From Rhodothermus profundi (GTDB taxonomy: Bacteria > Bacteroidota > Rhodothermia > Rhodothermales > Rhodothermaceae), in the NCBI RefSeq assembly GCF_900142415.1, contig NZ_FRAU01000005.1:1-37748 (forward strand): a DNA stretch of 37,748 nt, in the 5' to 3' direction. The notes beneath the pieces are model-generated. The model had not been told where the DNA came from and did not search any database. It saw only the letters and a list, made by a program, of their open reading frames with translations. Of this stretch, positions 31,878 through 37,748 are shown piece after piece (within the stretch, counting starts at the first letter, position 1; every line of letters starts with the position of its first letter). Made by a program: the position numbers and the translations under genes.

Positions 31878-31953
31878 GGGGACATAGCTCAGTTGGTAGA
31901 GCGCTGCGATCGCACCGCAGAGGTCAGGGGTTCGAATCCCCTTGTCTCCACCA
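31878..31953 (+). tRNA. tRNA-Ala, anticodon CGC
   Basis: A 76-base cloverleaf including an encoded CCA. The acceptor GGGGACA pairs with TGTCTCC and contains the G3:U70 pair that marks tRNA-Ala. The anticodon stem CTGCG/CGCAG holds loop ATCGCAC, giving anticodon CGC for codon GCG. The T arm is GGGG TTCGAAT CCCC. A palindrome CCGCCTTAGGCGG lies at 31858-31870 just upstream. Confidence 0.96.
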
Positions 31954-31957
31954 CACG

Positions 31958-32005
31958 TTAGCCGCAAGCCCTTAATTCAAAAGGCTTGCGGCTAATTTTT
32001 TTTTT
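31958..32005 (+). terminator. Intrinsic terminator after tRNA-Ala
   Basis: TTAGCCGCAAGCC and GGCTTGCGGCTAA form a perfect 13-pair stem followed by ten Ts. It is a strong terminator. Confidence 0.92.
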
Positions 32006-32020
32006 GGCACGGGTACAGGT

Positions 32021-32048
32021 TTTTCCCTGCCTGCAGCGGCAGGGAAAA
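32021..32048 (+). other. Second hairpin downstream of tRNA-Ala
   Basis: TTTTCCCTGCC, loop TGCAGC, GGCAGGGAAAA form an 11-pair stem followed by GTTTT. It is flanked by GGCAC...ACAGG and CCTGTGCC, which can extend the pairing. It may be a backup or bidirectional terminator. Confidence 0.55.
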
Positions 32049-32110
32049 GTTTTACCTGTGCCATTATGCCTGTCTGGCTCCCTTCAGTCACAGCTTATGC
32101 AGAGGGACGA

Positions 32111-32138
32111 GCACGATCCCCGCAGGTGCGAGGGCACC
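32111..32138 (-). repeat. Solitary CRISPR-repeat-like sequence
   Basis: This 28-base segment matches the repeat of the array at 36,740 at 23 of 28 positions, keeping ATCCCCGC, GGTGCG and CACC in register. Differences are at repeat positions 2, 5, 14, 21 and 24. No second copy lies 61 bases to either side. The strand given is the expected crRNA strand. Confidence 0.6.
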
Positions 32139-32294
32139 CAGTATGCACAAAAAAGCACCGTGCCCTGTTGCTCGTCGGCGAAAGCGAGAAGGGACTTTTC
32201 AAAAAGACGTTCATTTCTATGCAACAGAGGCAAAAGGGAGACATTACCTCCCTGAATCGGCGTCGAACCGGGTTGCTGATCCGGAGTCGGTAAA

Positions 32295-32321
32295 TAAAAA
32301 GCAGGATCACATAGATCCTGC
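32295..32321 (-). terminator. Minus-strand intrinsic terminator
   Basis: GCAGGATC, loop ACATA, GATCCTGC form an eight-pair stem. On the minus strand it is followed by TTTTTATTT. It could end the prophage transcript arriving from 34,550 or a small RNA from the GC-rich interval. Confidence 0.75.
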
Positions 32322-32435
32322 CCGATGTGTAAGGTCCAGTCCGCGCCGCACCGCGCTGGTCCGGCACCCGGGCTTCCGGGGTGCGGCCCTCACCCGGGAT
32401 CAGAAAATGTTACTCTGTAATAGCAATTTAGTTTT

Positions 32436-32929
32436 ATGCCAGTGCGGGTCATTGCCTGTCTGAACGACAGGGCTCTTCAGGCATTCATCCAGAAACTGCA
32501 TCGACGCGTGCACAGCCTTCATCTCCTGCTGCAGGAGATAGTCGAGCTACGAAGGAGCGGCTTCGCACGCAGCCCGATCCCCGGGGGCATGGCGACCCTT
32601 CTCTCCAGAGACGCCGCTACAAGCGCAGGAACCAGACCAAGATCCTCCTCCTCAACCTCTGGTCGTCTATCAAGTGCGTGGCAGTACGGTGCCCTGTCAC
32701 GCATGAGAGGCTATCTCTGCGTATGTGGGGACTGCTGCGCGTGTTCAAAGTGGACGAAGGAAGCGTCACGATCGGATTCAATCGGACCGACGCGGCAGAA
32801 AAAGCTTACTATCACGTCATAAGCGGAGCAGGTCGGTCGCGCACGATCCGCGACTTTCTGGGGCTGACCGATGAAGAAGTGGCGCGTGTGGCCGACGTAG
32901 TAGCCCGGGGCATTCGCCTCGAGCTTTAA
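32436..32929 (+). pseudogene. Broken phage virion-morphogenesis gene (Mu gpG-like)
   Basis: Pieces of one protein appear in order but in different frames. The first is an N-terminal helix pair (RALQAFIQKLHRRVHSLHLLLQEIVELRR) from ATG 32436. Next come AWRPFSPET and RRYKRRNQTKILLLNLWSSI. The last is SVTIGFNRTDAAEKAYYHV with IRDFLGLTDEEVARVADVV up to the stop at 32929. This order matches the Phage_tail_S/gpG family (W.PLSP.T, ILL..G.L..SI, R.FLGLS). At least two indels separate the pieces, so no full product can be made. The stop overlaps the stop of the convergent minus-strand gene. The final 83 codons remain an open frame from 32678. Confidence 0.7.
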
Positions 32930-33171
32930 GCGTACTCCTCATCCTCTTCCGGTTCGCCGATTATGGCGACGTCCAGGTCCCGCAGATAACGCTGGCGGTC
33001 GATCTCAAGCTTCTGTTCCAGCTCTTTCATCTCGCTATAGGTAAGCTTACCCATAGCGAAGGCTTCTACAATGCGTCCCCACATGATAAGCCGAGCAGCC
33101 TCTGTCAGGAGACCATTCCGTCTGGCACGGTCTATGACTTCTTCATATTCCGATTTCATCAAGGATTTCAT
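32926..33171 (-). CDS. Small protein after the MuF-toxin gene, candidate immunity protein
   Basis: ATG 33171 is preceded by AGAGG, and the gene overlaps the end of the MuF-toxin gene by 29 bases, which implies coupled translation. The 81-residue product is soluble and helical (EYEEVIDRARRNGLLTEAARLIMWGRIVEAF, YSEMKELEQKLEIDRQRYL) and ends in an acidic tail (EPEEDEEYA). A position directly after a nuclease-toxin domain, small size and acidity are typical of immunity proteins, but I recognise no immunity family. A phage structural or regulatory role is possible. The open frame extends to 33228, but the earlier start would reach further into the toxin gene. Confidence 0.6.
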   Translation of the reverse strand: MKSLMKSEYEEVIDRARRNGLLTEAARLIMWGRIVEAFAMGKLTYSEMKELEQKLEIDRQRYLRDLDVAIIGEPEEDEEYA

Positions 33172-34132
33172 GAAGCCTCTTTTCCAATATAATCTGCCTG
33201 AACAGTTCGATAATTCTTTCCTCCTCAAATATTATGTAGATCTTCCGAATTCGTTCCTTTTCATCACGCGCAACGGCTAACCTGATGCCTTTGAAAATTC
33301 TTTCTATATCATTTTTATCTACCTTTCGATCAACAAATAAAGCGACCACATGTAAATTGGTTTTTTTCTTTGCCTCTCTTAAATGCTGATAGGCGGCGTT
33401 GAACAGGTTCTTTGCCTTCGTGGTGATCGTCTTGAACTCCCAGTACTCGTCACCTACCAGCGCATCGGCAGTCCGTTCCGCACCGCTTGGCGGGATGAAA
33501 ATCACGTCCTTTCTCAGGCGCTCGGCAAGCATCCGGGCCAGTTTCAGTTCGTGCGCCAGCGGCTTGGTGGTAGGAAACACATACACGCCGGCCCCGCTTG
33601 CGCTCCGATACATCCGGCGAAGCTGCGACGGATCGATTTTATCTGCGGCAAGCGGCTCGACCACCGCGACCCAGCGATGGCGGCAGTTGTACCCGCCGCC
33701 GTAGATCCAGACCGGCAGTCCCTGGCCGTTGTCGAGCTTTTTGATCTCTTCCAGTGTGTAGATCTTGCCGTAGTGTTCCTTGCAGAACCGCCGGATGGGT
33801 GGCGGTCCCACGTAGCGGAAGCGCTGAATACCGGCCTGCTTCGCATCGGAAAAGGACTGGATGCGATCGAGGCCAGCCAGCGCCGTGTTGGCCACGGTGA
33901 ACATGTAGCGCTCCCCGCGGCGAATGATGCGCTCCAAATGGCGGCGAGCCGTGCGTTCCAGCTCCCGGCGCGGAGCATCTCGAGCGAGCAGGACCGTCAG
34001 CTCCCGCAGAAGTGCTTCCTGAATACGCGAGGCGGCCCGGGCCACGTCCGCCCCGGCCCATCGCAGAACCTCGGCAGCGGTCTGCAGGTCCTCAAGCGCA
34101 GCCAGTCGTACATGCGGAATGCTTCTTTCCAC
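33143..34132 (-). CDS. MuF-type phage head protein with C-terminal nuclease-toxin-like domain
   Basis: Residues 1-160 of 329 match phage minor head proteins of the Mu F/SPP1 gp7 family: a helical region, then CKEHYGKIYTLEEIKKL and the diagnostic GGYNCRHRW (146-154). Residues about 205-329 are different: FIPPSGAERTADALVGDEYW followed by EFK, in which Asp223, Glu232 and Lys234 fit the catalytic core of PD-(D/E)xK-type nucleases and of CdiA C-terminal tRNase domains. MuF proteins carrying swapped toxin tips are known in temperate phages. The DNA encoding the tip is visibly AT-richer than the head part, as expected for an exchanged module. The GTG start at 34132 is doubtful because the preceding frame looks like the true N-terminus. 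Confidence 0.75.
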   Translation of the reverse strand: MERSIPHVRLAALEDLQTAAEVLRWAGADVARAASRIQEALLRELTVLLARDAPRRELERTARRHLERIIRRGERYMFTVANTALAGLDRIQSFSDAKQAGIQRFRYVGPPPIRRFCKEHYGKIYTLEEIKKLDNGQGLPVWIYGGGYNCRHRWVAVVEPLAADKIDPSQLRRMYRSASGAGVYVFPTTKPLAHELKLARMLAERLRKDVIFIPPSGAERTADALVGDEYWEFKTITTKAKNLFNAAYQHLREAKKKTNLHVVALFVDRKVDKNDIERIFKGIRLAVARDEKERIRKIYIIFEEERIIELFRQIILEKRLHEILDEIGI

Positions 34133-34281
34133 AAGGCTTCTTGTAACGTGCGTTCGATGCGCTCACGCCGAAAGAACTCTGCCAGGCGGCGGTGGGCGAT
34201 TTCTGGGGGTGTTCGTTCCCTTACCAGGCTGACAACCAGCCGGCGGAGGTCGCCGGCAAGCTTTCGATATTCACGTTGCAT
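33997..34281 (-). CDS. Probable N-terminal segment of the MuF gene, out of frame
   Basis: From ATG 34281 the first 60 residues (REYRKLAGDLRRLVVSL, PPEIAHRRLAEFFRRERIERTLQEALWKEAF) read as a natural amphipathic helical domain. After about residue 60 the frame turns into Cys/Pro/Arg-rich nonsense, while the MuF frame becomes convincing over the same bases. The simplest reading is one gene, 33143-34281, with a single-base indel near 34,100. The alternatives are two overlapping genes or programmed frameshifting. It starts 11 bases after the zinc-ribbon gene. Confidence 0.5.
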   Translation of the reverse strand: MQREYRKLAGDLRRLVVSLVRERTPPEIAHRRLAEFFRRERIERTLQEALWKEAFRMYDWLRLRTCRPLPRFCDGPGRTWPGPPRVFRKHFCGS

Positions 34282-34292
34282 CGCGGCTCAGG

Positions 34293-34550
34293 TTATCTTT
34301 GCCTTTCCCCCTCAGATACTGAAAGGCGACCTCCTGCGCTATCACGTGACGTGATAATCTTCCAGCGCTCCAGATCGATCCATTTGGACCTGTAGTGCGT
34401 CGGCTGGTAGACCTCGACGCGTGCGACGCGCTCTTCCGTTTCCAGGAAGAGTCCACAGTTGTCGCAGCGGCGCCGGCGCAGGATGACGTTCTTGCCGCGA
34501 GTTGTGCGGACTACCAGGAGCCGATCGTCAGCGCAACGCGGACAGTACAT
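34293..34550 (-). CDS. Small zinc-ribbon protein of the prophage remnant
   Basis: The 85-residue product begins MYCPRC and has a second pair CDNC at residues 29-32, with a basic stretch RRRR between them. This four-cysteine zinc ribbon resembles the N-terminus of NrdR and small phage zinc-finger regulators. The remainder (EVYQPTHYRSKWIDLERWKI) is unfamiliar, and the last 15 residues may be poorly conserved. It heads the minus-strand prophage run and is divergent from the Mor-like gene. It may be a transcription regulator; that is inference. Confidence 0.6.
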   Translation of the reverse strand: MYCPRCADDRLLVVRTTRGKNVILRRRRCDNCGLFLETEERVARVEVYQPTHYRSKWIDLERWKIITSRDSAGGRLSVSEGERQR

Positions 34551-34679
34551 ACACGCTTCAGGTGTTGCATTTGTCCTGTTTGCGGAAAGGTAGTCTTAGA
34601 AGAGGCGGATGTTTTACCAGGAACTTTGTCAAGACTTGTGGCAAAAATCTTGACAAAAACCGGTAAGGAGCACGTGCAG

Positions 34680-34931
34680 TTGCCGGAGCACTGGGCGTAC
34701 GTTCAGTACGAGGACCTGAACGAAGACGGCCGCCTGGTGTGGGATGTACTGGGCAAGGAGGCGGCTTTGAAGCTGATCAGCGCCGTAGGTGGCGTGCGGC
34801 TTTACCTTCAGAACGCCTCACGGTTGGAGCGACGTGCCCGTCAGCGCATGGCACGCGAGCTGCTGGCCCGCGGCGAAGATCCGGAGAAAGTGCGGCGGAA
34901 AGTGCGCATACCACTAAGACAACTCTCCTGA
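34680..34931 (+). CDS. Mor-like transcription regulator of a Mu-type phage
   Basis: The coding stretch reads YEDLNEDGRLVWDVLGKEAALKLISAVGGVRLYLQ, like the dimerisation domain of the Mor/C family, whose signature is an IG-like turn, an AL-rich helix, and GG followed by a strand ending in Y. The C-terminal RMARELLARGEDPEKVRRKVRIPLRQL would be its HTH. Mor activates middle transcription in phage Mu. TTG 34680 is nine bases after AAGGAG (34665-34670) and is my preferred start. GTG 34674 or GTG 34638 are alternatives. The open frame continues upstream to 34395, but that part is a shadow of the zinc-ribbon gene. Product length is about 83 residues. Confidence 0.6.
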   Translation: MPEHWAYVQYEDLNEDGRLVWDVLGKEAALKLISAVGGVRLYLQNASRLERRARQRMARELLARGEDPEKVRRKVRIPLRQLS

Positions 34932-36686: not shown

Positions 36687-37748
36687 GGACTATCTTCACG
36701 TGTACGGGAGCTTCGTCCCTTATTTCTTCTGCCTTATTTGGACCATCCTCATGGGTATGGGGACACCATCTTCCCAGACTGCTCAAGCTCTCTTACGTAA
36801 GGACTATCCCCACGGGTGCGGGGACACCTCTCGTTGGCCTTAATGCTGGCCAGCTGCACGAGGACTATCCCCGCGGGTGCGGGGACACCCCGGGTGGCAG
36901 CAGGATTCGGATGAGCCTGTAGGGACTATCCCCGCAGGTACGGGGACACCAGATGATGCGGACGGGAGGGTGGCCCGATGATGGGACTATCCCCGCGAGT
37001 ACGGGGACACCCCGGCTGCAATACTTGTGTTGGCCAACTCCACGGGACTATCCCCGCGGGTACGGGGACACCGCGATCTCACAGATTGCCGCCCGGGCCG
37101 CATCAGGACTATCCCCGCGGGTACGGGGACACCGGACCCGATCGGTACCAGGGCTTTCCTTGCTAGGGACTATCCCCGCGGGTACGGGGACACCACTTGC
37201 TGGAGCGGGCAGGCCTGCAGGTAGGGAGGACTATCCCCGCGGGTGCGGGGACACCACCACCTGCGCCGTCCCGAAGTCATTCGTTGTGGGACTATCCCCG
37301 CGGGTACGGGGACACCATGGCTGGTCCGCTCTCGCATGAAGCGTCGCAAGGACTATCCCCGCGGGTACGGGGACACCGGCGCGTGGTAGCACTTGGCTTC
37401 GACGGGAACGGGACTATCCCCGCGGGTGCGGGGACACCGGCGCGTGGTAGCACTTGGCTTCGACGGGAACGGGACTATCCCCGCGGGTGCGGGGACACCA
37501 CCTGCGGCCGACAGCAAGCCGCAGGGGGCGGGGGACTATCCCCGCGGGTGCGGGGACACCCGCGGAGTACAGGGGTTCCTGTCAGGGCTGGGGGGACTAT
37601 CCCCGCGGGTGCGGGGACACCCTTGCGTGGTCACGAATGGCTTCCAGCACGCGGGGACTATCCCCGCGGGTGCGGGGACACCATGTCCATGAGATAGTCA
37701 GCATTCCTGATGAAGGGACTATCCCCGCGGGTGCGGGGACACCGGGCA
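36687..37748 (-). CRISPR. Type I-E-like CRISPR array, trailer end; continues past the right edge
   Basis: Seventeen repeats of 28 bases (36740-36767 to 37716-37743) repeat every 61 bases, with 33-base spacers. A very degenerate further copy lies at 36687-36714, only 53 bases from the next. The consensus begins GGACTATCCCCGCGGG and ends GGGGACACC. Its reverse complement has a CCCCGC/GCGGGG stem and aligns with the type I-E consensus, so crRNA is probably read on the minus strand. Decayed repeats at the left mark the old end, so the leader should lie to the right. Sixteen spacers are complete; a 17th begins at 37744. No cas gene is in the window. Long open frames across the array are artefacts of the 61-base period. 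Confidence 0.97.
37378..37471 (-). repeat. Duplicated spacer-repeat unit in the CRISPR array
   Basis: The 33-base spacer at 37378-37410 (starting GGCGCGTGGTAGC) is identical to that at 37439-37471. The repeat between them is intact. All other spacers differ, so this is one unit copied in place. Confidence 0.95.

Follow-up and report, generated by a model that had tools for sequence, protein, structure and literature searches.

The closest described counterparts of a CRISPR repeat standing outside its array are the CreA RNAs of CreTA, the solitary repeat units (SRUs) and RNA anti-CRISPRs (Racrs) of phages, and the degenerate repeats at the trailer ends of type I-E arrays, including arrays that are split and leaderless. 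According to passages of PMC8501985 and PMC9458426, creA repeats retain what Cas6 requires. Most prophage SRUs, as a portion of PMC10651486 describes them, resemble the repeat of the resident subtype. We describe here an orphan, degenerate type I-E repeat at positions 32111..32138 of the window, by which we mean the whole stretch of 37,748 nucleotides from Rhodothermus profundi that was analysed. It is likely that this orphan is a relic of the distal (trailer, oldest) end of the type I-E array that lies further right, stranded by inserted, partly phage-derived DNA. Such a repeat probably yields no functional RNA.

Aligned in register, the plus strand of the orphan, GCACGATCCCCGCAGGTGCGAGGGCACC, agrees with the array repeat GGACTATCCCCGCGGGTGCGGGGACACC at 23 of 28 positions, just as an earlier note on this DNA had counted, and with a congener repeat variant, GGACTATCCCCGCGGGTGCGGGGGCACC, at 24 of 28; its crRNA sense is the minus strand, where it reads GGTGCCCTCGCACCTGCGGGGATCGTGC. 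The note had also called the copy solitary and placed it between a tRNA-Ala and a prophage remnant, and both statements stand: at one array period to either side (±61, near 32050 and 32172) no position reaches 14 matches on either strand, the tRNA gene lies on one side, viral-contig homology begins at about 32735, and the end of the array is 4.5 kb off. Across 76 kb of contig, the highest score elsewhere outside the array is 19/28 against GGACTATCCCCGCGGGTGCGGGGACACC, and the runner-up under the best of the four genus repeat variants scores 20/28, at 32708. Searching the organism's own genome with the orphan's 23-base core, at no more than three mismatches, counted 16 places; the eight matches listed are the orphan and seven array copies, and the 15 array copies that fit explain the remainder. 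On the minus strand the orphan retains a 6-bp stem with one U-G pair (-11.7 kcal/mol), and for the decayed copies in the tail of the array the folding energies are just -0.2 and -6.7 kcal/mol. The 5' handle reads ATCGTGC in the orphan and ATAGTCC in the array, a difference at two of seven positions. Rfam gave no match over the orphan, whether at gathering thresholds or at relaxed ones, and a sub-threshold CRISPR-DR35 match (19.1 bits against the 35 needed) covers the tRNA terminator. The overlapping ORFs tested in this stretch contain no Pfam domain, BLAST for leader-like sequence upstream of the orphan gave no match, and 31980-32940 has no DNA relatives among phages and plasmids.

The part of the array that falls within the window occupies 36687..37743 on the minus strand, in a register of 29-nt repeat plus 32-nt spacer. 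Its trailer end is on the left, where decayed copies stand at 36687 and 36740, and its leader is on the right, outside the window. Right of the array, on one strand, proteins have Pfam matches to Cas1, a CRISPR_assoc protein (which we take to be Cas6e), Cas5, CT1975 (Cas7), Cse2 and Cas3, and the system is of type I-E; a 506-residue protein at the Cse1 position has no Pfam match in a scan that took in the six matched cas proteins and left out Cas2. The crRNA sense of the array is the minus strand, with leader and cas genes rightward on the same contig, and the orphan shares this orientation and lies past the trailer end, opposite the leader and cas side. A leader motif, TGCCATAATGGCATAGA, is common to the window's contig, the congener G004 and the first of two arrays in the congener G002. 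Two adjacent array spacers, at 37378-37470, are identical (GGCGCGTGGTAGCACTTGGCTTCGACGGGAAC), a repeat-spacer duplication.

To the left of the orphan is the gene for tRNA-Ala(CGC), at 31878..31953 on the plus strand. The DNA similarity shared with the six congeners runs as far as 31951-32001, no further than this gene and its terminator or just past them. With G004 it restarts at contig position 48484, and by this alignment the entire CRISPR-cas locus sits in DNA missing from G004 at this place; no restart was found for the other five congeners within the stretches compared. The arrays of G002 and G004 map near 0.54-0.57 Mb, whereas this tRNA is at 2.4-2.6 Mb. A duplicate of the tRNA end, sought at the right side of the island, gave just 10-14-base matches. 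A long, near-perfect hairpin at 32005..32063 (-39.8 kcal/mol, z = -7.7 for the segment 32000-32070) separates the tRNA terminator from the orphan, and own-genome searches using the DNA around it found no further copy. Beside this hairpin, TGCCATTATG at 32059-32068 is identical to a ten-base part of the leader motif (TGCCATAATGGCA on the other strand), a likeness that is probably due to chance, its position and spacing being unfit for a leader.

Between the orphan and the array, a phage remnant at 32735..34912, to which no strand is assigned, is collinear in three pieces with an IMG/VR viral contig (L120), at 69-79% DNA identity. Nearer the orphan, a remnant unit on the plus strand at 32260..32518, made up of a hairpin, a GC-rich structured stretch and a remnant gene that starts at 32436, has a homologue in G004. 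The remnant gene has neither a Pfam nor a PHROGs match; we take it to resemble the Mu gpG family and hence to be phage-like. Compared with the G004 DNA that separates the last repeat from the orphan there, 32260-32518 gives a local alignment score of 98, where the maximum of 200 shuffles is 45, and part of it is also homologous to stretches of G003 and G006 (scores 74 and 93, shuffle maxima 40), genomes with no array of this repeat type. The unit's orientation in the window is opposite to that in the congener, and its distance from the orphan is 122 bp, against about 600 bp for the viral-contig homology. When 32000-32460 was queried against 394 genomes of the phylum, matches at E <=0.05 came from 36 genomes, the organism's own included, and the non-self matches were all short, with E 0.0038 or worse; the congener copies of the unit thus lie beneath the sensitivity of that search. 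Homologues of the hairpin and GC-rich stretch at 32297-32400 are found in five of the six congeners (loci L109-L113), the carriers being G002, G004, G005 (twice), G003 and G006, with none found in G001, and 32270-32410 folds more stably than its shuffles (z = -3.3 and -3.8). Within the phage remnant, the minus-strand protein encoded at 33143-34132 matches a CdiA C-terminal domain (PF18451, E 2.9e-7) and may carry a toxin-like domain. The segment 33707-33787 of the remnant matches two I-E spacers of G004 at 22/24 and 26/29 aligned bases: immunity in the genus targets this phage family.

Orphan repeats are not confined to the window. The repeat type, searched with the 23-base core at up to three mismatches, is found in four of the seven genus genomes, the window's own included, and all three congeners with this array type have an orphan of 20-21/28 in array orientation, whose start lies 320 bp from that of the last repeat, with about 292 nt separating the two. 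These orphans belong to the second G002 array, the G004 array and the array on contig C206 of G005. Counted instead by arrays with a trailer flank (1.8-2.7 kb) at hand, three of four have an orphan: none is present within the 2.7 kb trailer flank of the first G002 array, a flank that on our reading is inserted DNA, and the locus on G005 contig C146, which ends 31 bases past its array, stands outside this count. Control DNA, 109 kb of array-free congener sequence, held nothing above 19 under the best of four variants, and that score occurred at four positions. The sequence past the congener orphan resembles that past the last repeat, and tandem duplication may have made these orphans. In this small sample their alignments give no sign of selection: G004 and G005 orphans are identical at 23/28 positions (82%), with flanks at 275/300 and 255/300 and the nearest 60 bp on each side at 51/60 and 50/60; G002 and G005 orphans also agree at 23/28, the flanks in the comparisons of G004 and G002 with G005 being 83-92% identical; and the G002-G004 pair, at 28/28 with flanks of 293/299 and 284/298, does not discriminate. 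The window's own orphan has no orthologue in the genomes examined (394 of the phylum and the six congeners). We considered ACGATCC and TGCGAGG, common to the orphans of the window and of G002 and G004, as a conserved element and rejected them, both being missing in the G005 orphan; the two unusual bases that the window's orphan has in common with G002 and G004, and not with G005, probably reflect parallel changes. An 18-fixed-base pattern drawn from the shared bases had 29 hits among genome contigs, from many phyla by title (the genus perhaps excluded), and was dismissed as background. Repeats of a similar type are also present on IMG/VR contigs: L117 carries three at 61-base spacing (25-26/28), L118 matches at 26 and L119 at 22.

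The congener arrays also offer a precedent for an array in pieces. G004 has one array of 74 repeats, and G002 has two (L078 and L079), of 38 and 30 repeats, ~16 kb apart in the same orientation, the second without the leader motif. The leader flank of the G004 array resembles that of the first G002 array, its trailer flank and 10 of its spacers resemble those of the second, and the two G002 arrays appear, from these alignments, to be halves of one split array. No spacer is common to G004 and the first G002 array, and for this reason the argument for a split rests on the flanks; one spacer-sized match between the two proved to be leader rather than spacer. From this two-piece array we infer a comparable event for the window. 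At its GGGCACC end the orphan agrees with the 29 trailer-most of the 74 G004 repeats and with the 10 G005 copies in L111, and the repeats of the window's array have a different end. In the second G002 array, GGGCACC is lacking from the six repeats nearest the trailer, and the argument from this end hangs on one base.

Other explanations have to be set against this evidence. That the resemblance arose by chance in GC-rich palindromic DNA, a prospect the earlier note had itself raised, is scarcely credible. When the local 440 bp was resampled 20,000 times with a first-order model, one copy did reach 22/28, and scores of 19 and 20 occur elsewhere (the four 19s of the control DNA and the 20 at 32708). 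But none of the resamplings gave 23, and 300 order-3 Markov copies of window positions 1-36600, amounting to ~22 million positions on both strands, never rose above 20/28, a maximum reached at 12 positions. Chance also leaves unaddressed the array orientation, the trailer side and the same-side orphans of three congeners, and the match to the array repeat is real and single. It could instead be that the orphan is a phage SRU or Racr left by the adjoining prophage, once capturing the host's Cas6e and Cas7. We regard this as decidedly unlikely, even though a phage remnant is close by, its relatives are targeted by congener I-E spacers (one of which matches L120 at 32/32, the others partially) and the orphan is similar to the resident subtype's repeat. 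Over its 28 nt the identity is 82-86%, and the BLAST alignment (91.3% over 23/28 nt, 30.2 bits, best of four variants) falls short of the SRUFinder limits, which ask for 90% identity or more across 90% or more of the repeat with a bit score of 41.1 or higher and which we applied by value to this alignment. The viral-contig homology, moreover, begins well away from the orphan, though the remnant unit is nearer, and nothing above 18/28 is present in the viral stretches L120, L121 and L122 (partial) or in loci L112 and L113 of G003 and G006. A phage SRU or Racr would be expected just downstream of a promoter; upstream of the orphan, on the minus strand of 31950-32500, a scan limited to the sigma-70-like class found no such site. 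A related proposal concerns the route by which phage DNA entered: Faure et al., whom PMC8616872 cites, put forward repeat-mediated recombination for SRUs, and phage might have entered the arrays of the genus by recombination of a phage-borne solitary repeat with array repeats. We think this very improbable. Entry of this kind, if it took place, would put repeats on both sides of phage-derived DNA in the congeners and in the window (from the array tail to 32111), and if repeat-bracketed DNA does reflect phage integration through repeats, the genus would lend itself to a test of the idea.

The first of the two readings in the earlier note was a CreA-type regulator reading leftward from the orphan. 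A minus-strand transcript would be cut by Cas6e at the orphan, and the next 32 nt (CGTCCCTCTGCATAAGC...) would guide Cascade to a promoter that they match in part, so that a toxin or some other gene is repressed. Three observations fit such a regulator: the degenerate orphan still keeps its stem, a I-E cas operon with Pfam matches for six proteins is present, and the tested ORFs overlapping the orphan have no Pfam domain. We nevertheless consider it unlikely, given what follows. For the spacer-like sequence, at the 32-nt spacer position of the array register (32078..32109, minus strand), seed scans found no convincing target. Protospacer flanks of congener spacers are AAC (32/32), AAT and GTC (26/26 aligned each), and GAT and AGT, the last two from partial matches within the window, GAT also in L120. 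We took the PAM as RAY, which fits three of these five flanks and is only roughly known, the pyrimidine in last place being constant. Scanning the 76 kb of contig with a seed of positions 1-5 and 7-11 of the spacer-like part, the nucleotides that in CreA match a PAM-flanked site ahead of creT, at 9/10 or better, gave two non-self sites, at 40330 and 21314, where chance would give 4.5. They are preceded by TGG and CAG, which do not end in a pyrimidine, and no PAM-flanked seed match of the kind that the note had suggested looking for was found on these 76 kb. Elsewhere, a genome search with the leading 14 nt, one mismatch allowed, gave three sites. The triplets before them are CGC, AGC and TAA, which all depart from RAY, although two finish in C, a pyrimidine as in the protospacer flanks of the genus; the AGC-flanked site, a 20/32 match, lies inside an 894-codon ORF. 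No second repeat was found at the expected spacing from the orphan, and the minus strand of 31950-32500 has neither a sigma-70-like promoter upstream of it (the host may use another type) nor a T-tailed terminator past the spacer-like part. The sole terminator-like site on that strand, 32323-32299, is upstream, between array and orphan, and within shuffle expectation, and the fold of the wider stretch around the orphan is unremarkable (z = -1.1 and -0.5). ORFs tested up to 1.1 kb from the orphan have no Pfam or PHROGs match, a search that tiny creT genes would escape. The departure of the 5' handle from that of the array counts against a regulator too, as does the finding that G004 and G005 orphans are no more similar than their flanks.

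We return to the reading of the orphan as a relic of the array's trailer end. The oldest end of the array would once have reached 32111, with one repeat there; mobile, partly phage-derived DNA would then have come between that repeat and the rest of the array, and the cut-off repeat would have drifted afterwards. Similarity, orientation, side, decay, a phage remnant in between, orphans in three congeners and one two-piece array are observed; for the window's own repeat, we infer the stranding by insertion and the lack of transcription or processing. The note's second suggestion, the relic of a second array, survives in its first half: orientation, trailer side and the three similar congeners point to a relic, but to one of the same array's tail rather than of a second array. 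Matches of 18/28 at 32572 and 19-20/28 at 32708 are in orientation, but they show no 61-base periodicity, and the latter runs into the beginning of the translated alignment with L120; we rejected a second decayed array and rest nothing on these two matches. Several points speak against the relic. The orphan's stem is better kept than those of copies still inside the array, tandem duplication in place of insertion could account for the congener orphans, and, owing to the inverted unit, the arrangements in the congeners and the window are similar rather than identical.

As a relic, the orphan would be a small record of the loss of an array's tail, and it carries a caution against taking every lone degenerate repeat beside phage DNA for a regulator or an RNA anti-CRISPR. 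With CreA of CreTA, as described in PMC8501985 and PMC9458426, it shares a degenerate, ectopic repeat in the neighbourhood of a type I system, with the stem kept; it differs in that no PAM-flanked seed target (on the 76 kb), second repeat, T-rich terminator or toxin was found. Like the phage SRUs and Racrs presented in PMC10651486, it is solitary, outside recognised genes, near phage DNA and of the resident subtype, but unlike them it is too diverged for the SRUFinder limits, lies outside the DNA matched by viral contigs and is missing from three related viral stretches. Its likeness to the degenerate trailer-end repeats and the split, leaderless arrays of type I-E systems extends to repeat sequence, orientation, trailer side and progressive decay. 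What sets it apart from such trailer relics is that here a single repeat stands 4.5 kb from its array, beside a tRNA gene that in G002 and G004 is far from the arrays.
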